A stretch of DNA of 19,220 nt from Sphingobacteriales bacterium (GTDB lineage Bacteria; Bacteroidota; Bacteroidia; Chitinophagales; Chitinophagaceae). Position numbers and translations under genes: made by a program. Every line of letters starts with the position of its first letter. The first letter of the stretch is position 1. The stretch is taken from positions 1,628 through 20,847 of the forward strand of contig JAHEFC010000012.1 of the NCBI GenBank assembly GCA_024640385.1. Direction: 5' to 3'. The notes beneath the pieces are model-generated. The model did not search any database and was not told where the DNA came from. It worked only from the letters and a program-made list of their open reading frames with translations. Shown here one piece after another: positions 1,108-19,214 of this stretch.

Positions 1108-2733
1108 ATGTATAGAATCCCGTCAAAGCTGGAAATATTTGATGAGCTGGAAAAGATCCTGGTAAGTCGTTATTTTATCCATTCCAAAATACTATCGGCA
1201 TTTCTTGACTTTGTTGTCAGGAAAACGGTAGAAGACAAGGCTATTGAGATCAAGGAATATACCATCGGTTTGCAGATCATGAACCGTAAAGAGGGGTTCA
1301 ATCCGCAGAAAGATGCGTCGGTGCGGATTCATGCCGTAAGGCTCAGGAAGATCCTTGAAAAATACTATAAGGTTGAAGGACGGGAAGACAAGGTCATCAT
1401 AGACATACCTAAAGGAAGCTATTTTGCGCGCTTCAGGTATTCCGATTCGCCCACAACAGAGTTTGCTGAGATCGTGCATCTTCAGTCTGAAACCGGCATC
1501 CAAATGCGGGTACAGCAGCCACTGATTGCTGTAATGCCTTTTGTCACTTATTCTGATAAAGAACTTGCACAGGTGATCACTGACGGTATCGGCGAAAAAC
1601 TCTGTGCTGAACTGTCGCGTTTCGAGGATATTTCAGTTCTGTCGTATTATTCAACAGTGATGTACGATGCTGAAAAATGGGATCTGCAGAAACTCAGGAA
1701 CGAGTTCAATGTGACTCATCTAGTGACTGGTAGTGTTAACTATTTTGGAAACGATATGTTCGTCTCCTACGAACTGGTCAACACCGAAGATTTTAAAGTC
1801 CTTTGGGCAGAGACCCTGGAAGAACCTCATCAATCGAACATATTCCTGGATTTTGATAAAATTGTATCCCGGATCTCTTCGGTCCTGGGAGGATATACGG
1901 GCATGATACAACTTCGGAGAAATTCCCTGGTGGAGCCTGCGGAGAATTATGAAAAAAATGTGATAGACGCTGTATTCTGGTTCTATCATTTCCAGATCAG
2001 GTTTACAGAGGATATTTATCGTAAGGCTGTTGAGCAATTAGAGAAATGTGTGAAAACCTACCCTTCTTATGCGCTGGGACATGCGTTGCTTGCGCATTTA
2101 TATGCCGATGGACCTCTATTCGGGTATGATGGAGTGGATGACCTGATGGGAAAGTCAAAATATCATGCTGAAGAAGCGCTGCGATTGGATCCGAATTGCC
2201 AGCAGGCATATTTCACATTAGCGTTTTTCCAAGTCCTTACCGGTGATAAGCAGGGGGCATACTTGTCCCTGGAAAAATGCCTCGCCATAAATCCGAACTC
2301 TGCATTTTTCCTTGGTGGGGTTGGTCTTGGAATGTCATTTCTTGGGTATTGGGACCGCAGTATTGAATTGATAAAAAAAGCAGCCATTGTTAATCCGATC
2401 CACAGGTGGTGGCTGCATTTCGCCAGTATGCTTTACGAAATTCATCAAAAAGATTTTGTCCATGCCCTGCATATTGCCAGGCAGATCGACCCACAGCGAG
2501 GGATGTATTACAGGGTATTTGAAATTACCCTGCATGCTTACCTGGGGCAGGATGCTGAAGCAGCAAAGATCGCAGAAGAGTACTGTAGAAAATACCCCAA
2601 CGGGGTCAGAGTGGTGGATCATAGCATGGACCTGCTGCTTTCAGACCGGGAGGTTTATGATGTACTGCACCAGGGATTTATCCGATCTGGCTTATTGAAA
2701 GAACCGACTATCCGCCAGCTTTCCGAGTTTTAG
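1108..2733 (+). CDS. Winged-helix-like / TolB-like / TPR protein, probable regulator
   Basis: A 541-residue protein with three parts. Residues 1-110 (hallmarks FLDFVVRKT, EIKEYTIG, ASVRIHAVRLRKILEKYY, IPKGSYFARF) match the N-terminal module of many proteins annotated as winged-helix regulators or, loosely, as adenylate cyclases; it resembles OmpR/CadC-type DNA-binding domains. Residues about 136-245 (LIAVMPF, ITDGIGEKLCAELSR, THLVTGSV) are TolB/FlgO-like. Residues about 285-500 are TPR-like helical pairs (for example GHALLAHLYADG, QAYFTLAFFQVLTGDKQGAYLSLEKCLAINP). No signal peptide or membrane segment is visible, so it should be cytoplasmic. No cyclase domain is present. A near-match to the -7 box (TATCATTTG, 1063-1071) lies upstream. 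The target is unknown. The frame stays open for 57 codons past the TAG stop (see 2758-2907). Confidence 0.85.
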   Translation: MYRIPSKLEIFDELEKILVSRYFIHSKILSAFLDFVVRKTVEDKAIEIKEYTIGLQIMNRKEGFNPQKDASVRIHAVRLRKILEKYYKVEGREDKVIIDIPKGSYFARFRYSDSPTTEFAEIVHLQSETGIQMRVQQPLIAVMPFVTYSDKELAQVITDGIGEKLCAELSRFEDISVLSYYSTVMYDAEKWDLQKLRNEFNVTHLVTGSVNYFGNDMFVSYELVNTEDFKVLWAETLEEPHQSNIFLDFDKIVSRISSVLGGYTGMIQLRRNSLVEPAENYEKNVIDAVFWFYHFQIRFTEDIYRKAVEQLEKCVKTYPSYALGHALLAHLYADGPLFGYDGVDDLMGKSKYHAEEALRLDPNCQQAYFTLAFFQVLTGDKQGAYLSLEKCLAINPNSAFFLGGVGLGMSFLGYWDRSIELIKKAAIVNPIHRWWLHFASMLYEIHQKDFVHALHIARQIDPQRGMYYRVFEITLHAYLGQDAEAAKIAEEYCRKYPNGVRVVDHSMDLLLSDREVYDVLHQGFIRSGLLKEPTIRQLSEF

Positions 2734-15124: not shown

Positions 15125-16207
15125 ATGAAAACTTTAGTTGCTGTCTTCCTGCTTCTAAGCACATCTGCCTTTGCGCAATTATCCTGGAGTGATCAGCCAT
15201 TCACCAAGGTCAGTGAAAATCCCATCATGGGTGCAGATTCTTCATATTCTTTTTATTGTCCTGTTCAGCAAAAAAATGTCAGGTGGCAGCGGGCTGATGT
15301 ATTCAACCCAGCGGCAGTTGTCAAAGATGGCAGGGTTTACCTTTTATTCCGGGCCGAGGACAATCCCAAAGCCGAGATCGGTGGCCGCACTTCGCGTATA
15401 GGCATTGCCGTTAGTGACGATGGGGTGCATTTTAAAAAACATCCTCTGCCTGTATTGTACCCTGATAAGGATATGTTTTCTGAATATGATTATCCGGGAG
15501 GATGTGAAGATCCCCGTGTCATTGAAACCGATGATGGGCGTTATGTTATGGCTTATACAAGCTGGAACGGGAAAACAGCCAGGCTGAGTATTGCTATGTC
15601 GAAAGACCTCTATAAATGGGAAAAGAAAGGCCCGGCATTTCTGAAAGCATATGGAGGGAAGTATAAGGACCAGTGGTCCAAGTCGGGCTCCATCATCACG
15701 GCGGTCAGGAATGGCCGGCCTGTAGCCGCAAAGATCAATGGGAAATACTGGATGTATTGGGGAGAACATTTTATCAACCTGGCCTGGTCAGATGATTTTT
15801 CCAATTGGAATCCCCTGGAGAATGAAAAAGGTGAATTAAAACAACTGGTCAGTACCCGGGAGGGGAAGTTTGACAGTGATCTTACCGAATGTGGACCCCC
15901 GGCGATGGTGACGGACAAAGGGATCCTGCTTTTATATAACGGGAAGAATTCGAATAATGACCATGCGAGTCCTGATCTACCCCGCGGAACCTATTCTGTT
16001 GGGCAGATCATTTTTGATCCTGCCCAACCTGAACTGGTGAGATCGAGATCGGAGCAGCCTTTCCTGAAACCCTCGTTGCCGCATGAAGTCACCGGTCAGT
16101 ATGCCGCCGGCACTACCTTTGCTGAGGGGCTGCTGTTCTTTAAAGGGAAATGGTTTTTGTACTACGGTACTGCGGATTCCTATGTAGGGCTGGCGGTGAA
16201 GAATTGA
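15125..16207 (+). CDS. Exported glycoside hydrolase family 130 protein
   Basis: A 360-residue five-bladed propeller enzyme of the GH130 type, acting on beta-mannosides as phosphorylase or hydrolase. Residues 1-18 are a signal peptide (ending SAFA-Q), so it works outside the cytoplasm. Family landmarks are VFNPAAV (59-65), GGCEDPRV (125-132, with D129 as the conserved acid), WSKSGSI (184-190), TECGPPA (254-260, E255) and LYYGTADSYVGLAV (345-358). Known mannosyl phosphorylases of GH130 are mostly cytoplasmic, while the exported members described are beta-1,2-mannosidases; export therefore favours hydrolysis (inference). It is last in the operon. Its TGA (16205-16207) lies inside the first unit of the inverted repeat array that follows. 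Confidence 0.9.
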   Translation: MKTLVAVFLLLSTSAFAQLSWSDQPFTKVSENPIMGADSSYSFYCPVQQKNVRWQRADVFNPAAVVKDGRVYLLFRAEDNPKAEIGGRTSRIGIAVSDDGVHFKKHPLPVLYPDKDMFSEYDYPGGCEDPRVIETDDGRYVMAYTSWNGKTARLSIAMSKDLYKWEKKGPAFLKAYGGKYKDQWSKSGSIITAVRNGRPVAAKINGKYWMYWGEHFINLAWSDDFSNWNPLENEKGELKQLVSTREGKFDSDLTECGPPAMVTDKGILLLYNGKNSNNDHASPDLPRGTYSVGQIIFDPAQPELVRSRSEQPFLKPSLPHEVTGQYAAGTTFAEGLLFFKGKWFLYYGTADSYVGLAVKN

Positions 16208-16277
16208 CGGATTGACGGATTGACGGATTAGCGGATTAACTATTTCCGCCAATCCGCCAATCCGTCAATCCGCCAAT
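16203..16277. repeat. Inverted array of 8-nt repeats forming a 33-position stem
   Basis: The left arm is TTGACGGA three times (16204-16227) then TTAGCGGA (16228-16235). After a 9-nt loop, the right arm is TCCGCCAA, TCCGCCAA, TCCGTCAA, TCCGCCAA (16245-16276). Bases 16203-16235 pair with 16245-16277 at 30 of 33 positions; the three mismatches (16207, 16223, 16230) are all A opposite C. No T-run follows, so it is not a classical intrinsic terminator, though it separates the envelope operon from accA and could stop transcription or protect mRNA ends. The GH130 stop codon is inside the first unit. Confidence 0.93.
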
Positions 16278-16297
16278 CCGATAATCCCCAAATCCCA

Positions 16298-16305
16298 TAT
16301 CTTTG
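16298..16305 (+). promoter_or_regulatory. -7 box of the accA-dapA operon
   Basis: TATCTTTG is an exact TAnnTTTG match 21 nt before the accA ATG. The expected -33 position falls in the right end of the repeat stem (about 16275-16280), where no TTTG is seen. The box overlaps a possible upstream TTG start at 16303 and so argues for the ATG at 16327. Confidence 0.6.
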
Positions 16306-16326
16306 AATTTCATCAATTGGATAGAT

Positions 16327-17304
16327 ATGCCCGAACTACAGAACAGGCAGTTCCTTGAATTTGAAAAACCGATCAAAGATCTATACGACCAGATCACGCA
16401 GTTGAGGATCACGGCTGAGAAGAATAAGATCGATCTGAACGATTCAATTGCCCAACTTGAAGAGAAGATCACAGAGAAGAAAAAGGAGATCAGGAATTCA
16501 CTGACCAACTGGCAGAAAGTGCAGTTGAGCAGACATCCAGACCGTCCCTATACCCTTTCCTATATTAAAAGGATCTGCGAGAATTTCATTGAATTGCACG
16601 GGGACCGGAATTTTAAAGATGATAAAGCCATCGTTGGAGGATTTGCCCAGCTCAACGGGGAAACCGTTATGATCATTGGTCAGCAGAAAGGCGTGAATAC
16701 AAAAATGCGCCAGCTCCGGAATTTTGGTATGGCAAATCCGGAAGGATACAGGAAAGCATTGAGGTTGATGAAGCTGGCTGAGAAATTCAACAAGCCAGTG
16801 ATCACCATGGTTGATACTCCCGGTGCGTTTCCAGGCATCGAGGCGGAGGAAAGAGGCCAGGGTGAAGCCATCGCAAAAAATATTTTTGAAATGATGCGCC
16901 TGAAAGTGCCTGTGATCTGTGTGATCATCGGTGAAGGTGCCAGCGGAGGTGCCATGGGTATTGGCGTGGGGGACAGGGTATTCATGATGGAGAATACCTG
17001 GTATACGGTGATATCTCCGGAAAGCTGCAGTTCGATATTATGGCGGTCATGGGATATGAAAGAAAAAGCTGCAGATGAGCTTAAACTGACTGCGGATCAT
17101 ATGATGAAGTTCGGCCTGGTGGATGGCATTGTGCCGGAACCCCTGGGAGGTGCACATTGGGACTATGATGAGGCGGCGGCGCTATTGAAAGAATACCTCA
17201 TTCCTGTACTGGCTGAACTCAAAAAGATCAATCCCCAGGAAAGGATCAGCCAGAGAATAGAAAAATTCAGTAAAATGGGCTTCTGGGAGGAAGCTTCAGT
17301 ATAA
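16327..17304 (+). CDS. accA: Acetyl-CoA carboxylase carboxyltransferase subunit alpha
   Basis: A 325-residue protein of normal length for AccA. With AccD it transfers the carboxyl group from carboxybiotin to acetyl-CoA, making malonyl-CoA for fatty-acid synthesis in the cytoplasm. It has the N-terminal helical part ([15 protein letters not shown]), [23 protein letters not shown], the crotonase-fold core [20 protein letters not shown], the oxyanion region [15 protein letters not shown] and the C-terminal [20 protein letters not shown]. The ATG at 16327 is preferred to an in-frame TTG at 16303, which lies inside the promoter box. dapA starts 9 nt after the stop, so the two are one transcript. 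Confidence 0.97.
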
Positions 17305-17313
17305 ACTTAATAC

Positions 17314-18195
17314 ATGTTGGCAAAAGATTTCAGGGGAACAGGTGTAGCCATCGTTACTCCTTTCACCAAAGAGGGCTCAATTGACTGGGAGGCGCTGAAA
17401 AAGCTGATCGATTTTCTCAGCAATGGGAAAGTGGAATACCTGGTGGTGATGGGAACCACGGGTGAAAATGTTACCATTACCAAAGAAGAAAAACAGGAGA
17501 TATTTGCATATGTTGCCAGGCACAATATGGCCGGGCTTCCTTTGGTTGCAGGAATCGGGGGAAACAACACGGCTGAGGTTCTTCATGGCCTGAGGCATAC
17601 CGATCTGTCAGGATATAGTGCCGTACTTTCTGTGAGCCCCTATTATAATAAGCCCAACCAACAGGGCATTTTCCATCATTATAAGCTGATAGGAGAACAC
17701 AGTCCTTTGCCTGTGATCATGTACAATGTTCCGGGGAGAACGGGGATGAATGTCAGCGCAGAAACTACGATCAGGATAGCGAATGACTGTCCTAATATTA
17801 TCGCTACTAAAGAAGCTTCCGGAAATTTTGACCAGATCATGCAGATCATCAAAAATAAGCCTGCAGGATTTGAGGTGATCAGCGGCGATGATGCCATCAC
17901 CCTGCCGATGATCGCACTGGGATCCATCGGCGTGATCTCGGTGGTGGCCAATGCTTATCCTGCAAGGTTCTCCGAGATGGTCAGGCTGGCTTTGGCAGAA
18001 AACTATCCTGCCGCCAGGGAACTGCATTACAAATTCATCGACATTATCAACACCTTGTTTGAGGAAGGCAGTCCCAGTGGTGTGAAAGCATATCTTTCCG
18101 AAATGGGTGTTTGCGGGAACTATTTCAGGATGCCGGTGTACCCGGTGAGTGATAAGCTGATGAACAAGATCAGGCACCAAATAGTACAAATGTGA
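17314..18195 (+). CDS. dapA: 4-hydroxy-tetrahydrodipicolinate synthase
   Basis: A 293-residue TIM-barrel aldolase that condenses pyruvate with aspartate semialdehyde, the first committed step to diaminopimelate and lysine. The Schiff-base lysine is K166 in ATKEASG. Y137 in YNVPGRTG is the proton-relay tyrosine, R142 the substrate-binding arginine, T48-T49 in GTTGE and Y110/Y111 in SPYYNKP complete the site. Length and residues are those of an active enzyme. It is co-transcribed with accA. The last codons and TGA (18193-18195) lie inside the first unit of the repeat array 18189-18304. Confidence 0.97.
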   Translation: MLAKDFRGTGVAIVTPFTKEGSIDWEALKKLIDFLSNGKVEYLVVMGTTGENVTITKEEKQEIFAYVARHNMAGLPLVAGIGGNNTAEVLHGLRHTDLSGYSAVLSVSPYYNKPNQQGIFHHYKLIGEHSPLPVIMYNVPGRTGMNVSAETTIRIANDCPNIIATKEASGNFDQIMQIIKNKPAGFEVISGDDAITLPMIALGSIGVISVVANAYPARFSEMVRLALAENYPAARELHYKFIDIINTLFEEGSPSGVKAYLSEMGVCGNYFRMPVYPVSDKLMNKIRHQIVQM

Positions 18196-18304
18196 TGAAT
18201 GTGATGAATGTGGAAAATGTGAAAAATGAATGTGATAAATGATCATTTTTCAATTTTCACATTCATTTCCCCACATTAACCACATTGATCACATTCATCA
18301 CATT
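18189..18304. repeat. Inverted array of 9-nt repeats forming a long stem between convergent genes
   Basis: The left arm is built of ATGTGATGA (twice), ATGTGGAAA, ATGTGAAAA, ATGA and ATGTGATAA from 18190. The right arm, read on the minus strand from 18303, is ATGTGATGA, ATGTGATCA, ATGTGGTTA and related units. Bases 18189-18221 pair with 18272-18304 at 30 of 33 positions, then after a 2-by-3 internal loop 18224-18235 pair perfectly with 18257-18268; the tip contains the palindrome AAATGATCATTT. It fills the whole space between dapA and the convergent hydrolase gene (one base from the latter's stop), so a bidirectional terminator role is plausible. Confidence 0.93.
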
Positions 18305-18305
18305 G

Positions 18306-19214
18306 TCACTGGGCATAGCCCAATGACTTCATCCACTTGATCATCTCATCCGGCCAGAAAATATCGGACTGCTTATTGTACATGCCGTATCCATGGCCTC
18401 CTTTATCATACAGCAGCAGTTTTACCGGCACATTATTTTTCTTCAGAGCTTCTTCATAAACAACTGAGTTCATGTAACTCACCCCGTCATCTTTTGCATG
18501 CACCAGGAATGCCGGGGGCGTTTTTGAGTCAACCTGCAATTCGTTGGAGTATCTGTTTACTTTTTCGGGAGCGGGATTTTTCCCAAGCAGATTGTTTTTC
18601 GAGCCGCTATGTGTGATACTGTCGGAAAAACTGATCACCGGGTAGATCAGGATGGAAAAATCGGGCCTCAGGGCAGCGGCGTTTTCATTATAACGGTAAA
18701 GCGTAGACGCATTTGCCGCCAGGTGTCCCCCTGCTGAAAATCCCATCACACCTACCTTTGATGGGTTTATGCCGTATCTGGCTGCATTATTTCTCACATG
18801 AAGGACAGCCTGCTGTGCATCCTGCAGGGGACCGGTTTCGGGGGATTCCATGGTAGCAGAATCAGGAATCCTGTATTTGACCACAAAAGCTGCAATGCCT
18901 TTTTCGGTAAAATATTTTGCCACATCCCAGCCTTCGTGTTTGATGGCATTGACACGGTAACCTCCGCCGGGGAAGATGATCACTGCCGTGCCTGTTGCAG
19001 TTTTCTTATCAGGCAGATAAACTGCAATGGTAGGTATGGAGATGCCTGAAACGATAACTATGCCATTGGCTATCGTATCTGTTTTCTCTTTGTCCGGAGC
19101 AGGTTTGGAACCGGGTATCTCTTTCTCGTAAAGCGGAAAAATGGTCTGCGCATTTGTCGTGACGGAAATGCCGAATGTAGTGACCATAAACAATAATTTC
19201 AGGCTTCTGATCAT
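18306..19214 (-). CDS. Secreted alpha/beta hydrolase, acetyl-esterase type
   Basis: A 302-residue exported esterase-like enzyme. Residues 1-22 are a signal peptide ending TTNA-Q. The fold shows the oxyanion segment IIFPGGGY (79-86), the nucleophile elbow GFSAGG with S160, the acid in HAKDDGVSY (D242 or D243) and the histidine in GGHGYG (H274), so the triad is complete. These are the features of the BD-FAE/acetylxylan-esterase-like family that removes acyl groups from plant polysaccharides; the exact ester is unknown. The start at 19214 gives the signal peptide directly. Upstream sequence lies outside the window. It is convergent with dapA, separated only by the repeat stem. Confidence 0.92.
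   Translation of the reverse strand: MIRSLKLLFMVTTFGISVTTNAQTIFPLYEKEIPGSKPAPDKEKTDTIANGIVIVSGISIPTIAVYLPDKKTATGTAVIIFPGGGYRVNAIKHEGWDVAKYFTEKGIAAFVVKYRIPDSATMESPETGPLQDAQQAVLHVRNNAARYGINPSKVGVMGFSAGGHLAANASTLYRYNENAAALRPDFSILIYPVISFSDSITHSGSKNNLLGKNPAPEKVNRYSNELQVDSKTPPAFLVHAKDDGVSYMNSVVYEEALKKNNVPVKLLLYDKGGHGYGMYNKQSDIFWPDEMIKWMKSLGYAQ

Follow-up and report, generated by a model that had tools for sequence, protein, structure and literature searches.

The window, a stretch of 19,220 nucleotides (nt) from a Sphingobacteriales bacterium (assembly GCA_024640385.1, contig JAHEFC010000012.1), carries two intergenic elements, A and B, which belong to dispersed families of short tandem repeats. 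At least eight such unit families, nearly all with a period of 7, 8 or 9 nt, lie side by side in this genome, and their arrays are mostly intergenic. Many of them adjoin a stop codon directly, and many are followed by an inverted array, which allows a hairpin to form. Element A (16203-16292) is located between a GH130-like gene and accA, and element B (18189-18304) fills the gap between dapA and a convergent alpha/beta-hydrolase gene. In both, a direct array is followed by inverted copies. The arms of A (16203-16235 and 16245-16277) consist of TTGACGGA-type units with a period of 8, those of B (18189-18221 and 18272-18304) consist of ATGTGATGA-type units with a period of 9, and 30 of 33 positions are paired in each stem. 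The units of A and B are unrelated, and the first unit of each element contains the TGA of the upstream gene. These features of A and B, including the shared architecture built from unrelated units, confirm the first-pass annotation of the window.

That annotation had also held that such elements are not a dispersed repeat family. However, in G000, the genome that contains the window (94% complete, 4.08 Mb in 585 contigs), a 21-nt pattern of A was found in 134 places and a 24-nt pattern of B in 132 places at up to 3 mismatches, so that both belong to families dispersed within G000; the loci are fewer than these numbers, because overlapping places in one array were counted separately. The reversed control patterns of A and B gave 0 places in G000. 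Subsequently, 80 contigs of G000 were read (626 kb, of which about 22 kb are N), comprising 58 random contigs, 20 that match A8, the family of element A, and 2 with transposase genes. Genes were called by a simple codon-usage script, so some called starts are wrong and the stops are safer. A periodicity scan over periods of 5 to 15 revealed 174 intergenic arrays, and the further cases that had been predicted for the genome thus exist: 63 arrays have period 7, 65 have period 8 and 22 have period 9 (150 of the 174). None has period 5, 6, 10 or 11. The other 24 have periods of 12 to 15; those of period 14 (8 arrays) and period 15 (11 arrays) are largely the repeat of a gene that resembles the tyrosine transposases (RAYTs) associated with repetitive extragenic palindromic (REP) elements. 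A further 35 arrays lie inside gene calls, 22 of them with period 7-9. One block-shuffled copy of the 80 contigs contained no array of period 7-9. To sort the 209 arrays, nine unit seeds derived from the data were used, and 173 arrays match a seed family:

A8 (GGATTGRC), 43 arrays
D7 (GCAGGTT), 34 arrays
E7 (AAAAGTM), 26 arrays
B9 (AATGTGATG), 21 arrays
H8 (AGAGAGTC), 17 arrays
C7 (CGGATTC), 15 arrays
I8 (AATTAGCT), 10 arrays
F7 (GAGAGGC), 6 arrays
G8 (ACGCAGAG), 1 array

On the random contigs, 55 elements were counted over 383 kb, or about 1 per 7 kb. Extrapolation from the 80 contigs gives about 590 elements per genome, which would make A and B two of hundreds; the density is, if anything, low for A8, since A8-rich contigs were drawn before the random ones. 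Such arrays should not be taken for locus-specific signals.

The placement of the elements was assessed at the stop and start sides of genes. In G000, an element edge lies at -12 to +5 nt of the stop codon on 48 of 99 stop sides, compared with 6 of 83 start sides. Uniform sliding of the elements within their gaps leads to an expectation of 32.0 ± 4.2 stop sides, with a maximum of 46 in 2000 runs, and the proposed association with stop codons therefore exceeds the uniform-placement null. Among the random contigs, 25 of 49 stop sides have an element at the stop (expected 14.9 ± 2.8); the picked contigs are the weakest case, with 23 of 50 (expected 17.3 ± 3.0). The corresponding number is 22 of 73 in other genomes (expected 12.2 ± 2.7) and 11 of 33 in the relative G019 alone (expected 3.6 ± 1.5). 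In the other-genome set (149 loci, 955 kb) some regions are present twice, which inflates its counts somewhat but does not affect the stretches of G019. By a first binning, 49 of 110 stop sides and 5 of 88 start sides have the edge from -5 to below +5, and 65 of the 110 stop sides have it from -30 to below +5. Elements in gaps of 60-600 nt were also counted by gene orientation. In G000 they occupy 15 of 28 gaps between convergent genes, 51 of 156 between co-directional genes and 11 of 53 between divergent genes; the respective numbers are 7 of 13, 24 of 90 and 4 of 26 for the random contigs, and 8 of 38, 35 of 192 and 3 of 57 for the other genomes.

Orientation and stop codon identity follow the family. 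The family strand is the sense strand at 61 of the 68 gene ends with an array at -40 to +8 nt, and the sense strand has more G than C at 58 of these ends, fewer at 9 and equal numbers at 1. For arrays at -40 to +50 nt of the stop in other genomes, these numbers are 37, 8 and 5. The identity of the stop codon is tied to the family (permutation p = 0.0002):

D7, TAG at 7 of 9
H8, TAG at 8 of 12
F7, TAG at 3 of 3
A8, TGA at 12 of 19
B9, TGA at 7 of 10
E7, TAA at 6 of 9

TAG is found at 24 of the 68 array-bearing ends, compared with 76 of the 393 remaining ends (p = 0.005 in a three-codon test). No stop is present in the consensus units of H8, D7 and F7, and many junctions are placed such that bases of the TAG are part of the array. 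Three B9 genes, dapA included, end in Met-TGA read from the array. Two gene calls of G000 (L155 9795-10370 and L195 2871-4778) share the tail INTETQR, which is apparently read from a ACGCAGAG-type (G8) array. A surplus of stop triplets in the near arm was rejected, as the counts of 66 vs 51 became 53 vs 51 once the gene's own stop was left out.

The two-armed elements have a fixed polarity. In the array scan, 50 of 117 elements are two-armed, and all 50 have the unit first and the complement second, with 0 reversed; the single-orientation elements number 37 and 30 (67 of 117). A separate inverted-repeat finder identified 58 two-armed elements, whose first arm has G above C in 53 and below C in 3. 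Among 14 two-armed elements of other genomes, the first arm has G above C in 12 and below C in 2. A purine-first polarity was rejected as a general rule: in G000 the count is 49 vs 6, the six exceptions being family C7, and the units of G019 are T-rich. G above C fits the polarity better than purine-first. Ordinary short inverted repeats showed no purine bias (45 vs 39; n = 95).

The match between the two arms was assessed within families. A far arm resembles the near arm of its own element more closely than it resembles arms of the same family elsewhere: the score is 914 vs 638 ± 33, a value reached in 0 of 2000 permutations (53 of the 58 two-armed elements, from six families). Taken by itself, E7 is weak (80 of 2000). 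Although the elements had been selected for matching arms, the resulting bias is small, since 429 of 498 between-element pairs also pass the matching filter. The loops of the 58 elements share no common sequence by eye. In-register arms together with unlike loops indicate that the units are shared genome-wide and the hairpin is made or kept in place, which upholds an earlier suggestion of inverted copying within the locus, or else maintenance of pairing.

We also compared the units among relatives. A8 occurs in 79 places in G000 vs 4 places in 3 of 40 genomes labelled with the same genus, and D7 in 294 places vs 3 places in 1 of the 40. Among 394 further Bacteroidota genomes, D7 was found in 7, at 1-5 places each, and its reversed control matches 2, one of them among the 7. 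A GTTCGTTG heptamer pattern has 147 places in G019 and 0 in the other 40 genomes, G000 included. Thus, two tested unit families, A8 and D7, are almost private to the species, a third is private to its relative, and the architecture recurs in other genomes with other units. A comparison of the orthologous accA and dapA flanks, as had been proposed, led to the same picture: among the matches listed in a lower-threshold scan, arrays lie within 150 nt of the stop at 7 of 81 dapA and 13 of 108 accA loci, they have other units in other species, and several begin between -5 and +8 nt. G019 (L253-L264), which by contig match is Pollutibacter soli JS81, has its own heptamer families of the GTTCGTT, GTTCATA and AACGTTG types, with arrays that reach about 17 units' length. 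The exact D7 (GCAGGTT-type) pattern is present in 6 IMG/VR viral contigs (L311-L316) and the A8 pattern in 0, and carriage by phages was not adopted as an explanation. One genome thus combines eight or more families with periods of 7-9, a fixed polarity, phasing with stop codons and near-complete privacy within the genus (two families tested). Since such private, multi-family and stop-phased repeats occur in one genome, their origin, spread and loss could be traced by comparing strains of one species.

The explanation that we favour as a whole, with moderate confidence, is that dispersed families are copied by microhomology and slippage into gene 3' ends and are tolerated there. Template switching, primed by the few bases common to the stop codon and the unit, would bring a unit to a new gene end; existing arrays would be the source, and replication- or repair-based copying is favoured. 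The arriving unit would then be amplified by slippage, and the array would be copied in inverted form on the spot. Selection would clear arrays from genes and promoters and leave those at gene 3' ends, a placement that REP elements share. A telomerase-like or Ku-based origin was not adopted, since neither RVT_1 nor Ku was matched at E up to 0.001 in the 94% complete G000, which leaves other reverse transcriptases and end-joining routes.

Several points weigh against this explanation. The microhomology step is inferred from junctions in one strain of the species, where neither an unoccupied site nor a recent insertion was seen. The matching of arms could also stem from selection for pairing, and an array could supply the identity of the stop after insertion, TAG being enriched. 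The uniform-slide null ignores promoter constraints on the start side, which push elements towards stops, and the stop-proximity test pooled the 19 listed convergent gaps with the others. Moreover, 36 of the 209 arrays fit no family, and of the families of G000 it was A8 and D7 whose privacy was tested.

The arrangement of the two elements and their genes in the window is as follows:

15125..16207, plus strand, GH130-like gene; its TGA (16205-16207) lies within the first unit of element A
16203..16237, plus strand, near array of element A; GGATTGAC-type units, period 8, family A8
16245..16292, minus strand, far array of element A; inverted units, 30 of 33 pairs with the near array, 9-nt loop
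16327..17304, plus strand, accA; orthologue alignments begin at ATG 16327, not at TTG 16303
17314..18195, plus strand, dapA; its final Met codon and TGA (18193-18195) lie inside element B
18189..18241, plus strand, near array of element B; AATGTGATG-type units, period 9, family B9
18257..18304, minus strand, far array of element B; inverted units, outer stem 18189-18221 with 18272-18304
18224-18242 with 18250-18268, inner stem of element B
18306..19214, minus strand, convergent alpha/beta-hydrolase gene; ends in a TGA (18308-18306) located 1 nt from element B

On the minus strand, 1 nt lies between the hydrolase TGA and the start of element B, which therefore has a stop codon at both ends. Pfam ACCA and DHDPS matches uphold the names accA and dapA that had been given to these genes. 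The accA relatives of the window are Chitinophagaceae and kin, and the C-terminus of the dapA product is only a few residues away from that of most of the orthologues shown. An Rfam scan of 15900-18600 gave 17 matches at E up to 1, all under gathering scores; the microRNA matches among them were rejected as sub-threshold.

It is possible, though rather unlikely, that the elements are kept for their RNA stem, which would end transcription, block 3' exonucleases or slow ribosomes at the stop. The near-stop placement, the enrichment between convergent genes and depletion between divergent genes, and the in-register arms would all fit such a role. The predicted stems of A and B are strong, with folding z-scores from -8.7 to -12.1 and 0 of 200 shuffles equally stable in each of four folds, and stalling of ribosomes is cited for REP elements that lie within 15 nt of a stop (PMC12306157). 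However, the sense RNA of 34 co-directional elements has 40 A-C mismatches vs 31 G-U pairs, A-C not being rarer (p = 0.34), and the idea of RNA selection via G-U pairs was rejected. An intrinsic terminator is a stem directly followed by a U-tract. Element A has no U-tract after its stem, and a T-rich tail (6 or more T among the following 10 nt) follows only 5 of the 34 co-directional two-armed elements (mirror control, 2). The idea that elements and intrinsic terminators exclude each other had come from arrays located 41-58 nt behind a stop, with a terminator in the intervening space; it was rejected as well, no association being found over 209 gaps (p = 0.71). In addition, 67 of the 117 elements of the first scan have arrays in a single orientation. 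The lack of complementarity with terminators, the few T-rich tails and the A-C mismatches argue against strong selection on RNA pairing, and the first-pass proposal that the stem ends transcription or shields the mRNA gained no support.

A bolder form of the copying model is more speculative, and we regard it as doubtful: stop codons themselves would be the landing sites of repair-like copying, the unit would be primed on bases shared with the stop, families would thereby pick genes with TAG, TGA or TAA, and each species would rewrite its gene ends with its own units. If gene ends are rewritten so fast, it is the turnover of repeats that determines 3' untranslated regions and some last codons.

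That a transposase of the Y1/RAYT type, or another one, moves the hairpins, as for REP elements and miniature inverted-repeat transposable elements, seems improbable. The palindromes are dispersed in the genome, and G000 has two Y1_Tnp genes, each on a contig with D7 arrays (L221 3781-3870 and L222 near 2396), although this is weak evidence because D7 is so common. However, the RAYT-like Y1 transposase gene (1738-2313, minus strand) in L221 (G000:C82) 1688-2462 is bracketed by palindromes of a different, 15-nt unit, CCTACCTCCAAGGTC, and the D7 arrays lie elsewhere on both Y1_Tnp contigs. This unit is found on 5 further contigs of the 80 read, and gene and repeat look like a RAYT/REP pair of their own. 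Moreover, the loops are not common to the elements, and eight or more families would require as many specificities. Finally, local birth at each locus, by amplification and inverted copying of bases from a single gene end, as first proposed for A and B, is very improbable. The stop codon within the first unit, the other units at orthologous ends of other species and the in-register arms would fit it, but individual units are found again at scores of loci across G000, in at least eight families and with 134 and 132 places for A and B genome-wide. This refutes local birth as the source of the unit at the individual locus, although it may still account for the start of a new family.

The short tandemly repeated repetitive (STRR) sequences of cyanobacteria are heptamers, likewise repeated in tandem and dispersed in intergenic space. 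The first-pass annotation knew of no named element of this kind; yet very similar pairs of GGGAATC heptamers (PMC4692102) and the placement of REP elements (PMC3733652) are in print. The first paper describes the GGGAATC or GGGGA(C/T)T heptamers of Xanthomonas and Nostoc as dispersed, intergenic and rare between divergent genes, with the G-rich strand as the sense strand near or over stop codons and with convergent inverted pairs (70 in Xcc and 75 in Xac), and calls the over-representation of 7-nt units among long bacterial repeats open. The present elements resemble them in that the G-richer strand is the sense strand near the stop (61 of 68) and in their convergent inverted pairs (50 of 50 two-armed elements). 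However, the GGGAATC system has one heptamer type per genome and GGG tracts able to form G-quadruplexes, whereas here at least eight families with periods of 7, 8 and 9, mostly without GGG tracts, lie side by side, the stop codon is tied to the family and the units are species-private. A and B have periods of 8 and 9 and units with GG or a single G instead of a 7-nt unit with a GGG tract; other families of G000 have period 7, as GGGAATC does. The heptamer TAACTGA, according to PMC4679880, forms intergenic arrays that are patchy across phyla, some Bacteroidetes included; in a Beggiatoaceae genome its repeats are mostly direct and lie immediately ahead of start codons, with one indirect repeat. 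The arrays here, in contrast, lie after stops and are often inverted.

REP elements are palindromes of 20-40 bp with a conserved core and a tag of the GTAG or CGTC type; according to PMC3733652, they adjoin both 3' ends between convergent genes, and the GTAG termini often give a TAG stop. The elements of G000 likewise adjoin the 3' ends of genes, in convergent as well as co-directional pairs. They differ from REP elements in their tandem 7-9 nt arrays and the unlike loops of the 58 two-armed elements, they have no such palindrome and tag, the letters CGTC in A8 being merely part of the unit, and the RAYT-like gene is flanked by its 15-nt palindromic unit and not by A8 or B9. Searches of the open-licence literature in PubMed Central (PMC) brought up no publication about elements of this type from this bacterial group. 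Collectively, the elements are like REP elements in placement and like GGGAATC pairs in build, but depart from each in a defining feature. As far as open-licence PMC searches show, what is new is the presence of several families side by side, the periods of 7-9, the family-specific stop codons and the within-genus privacy of the units.

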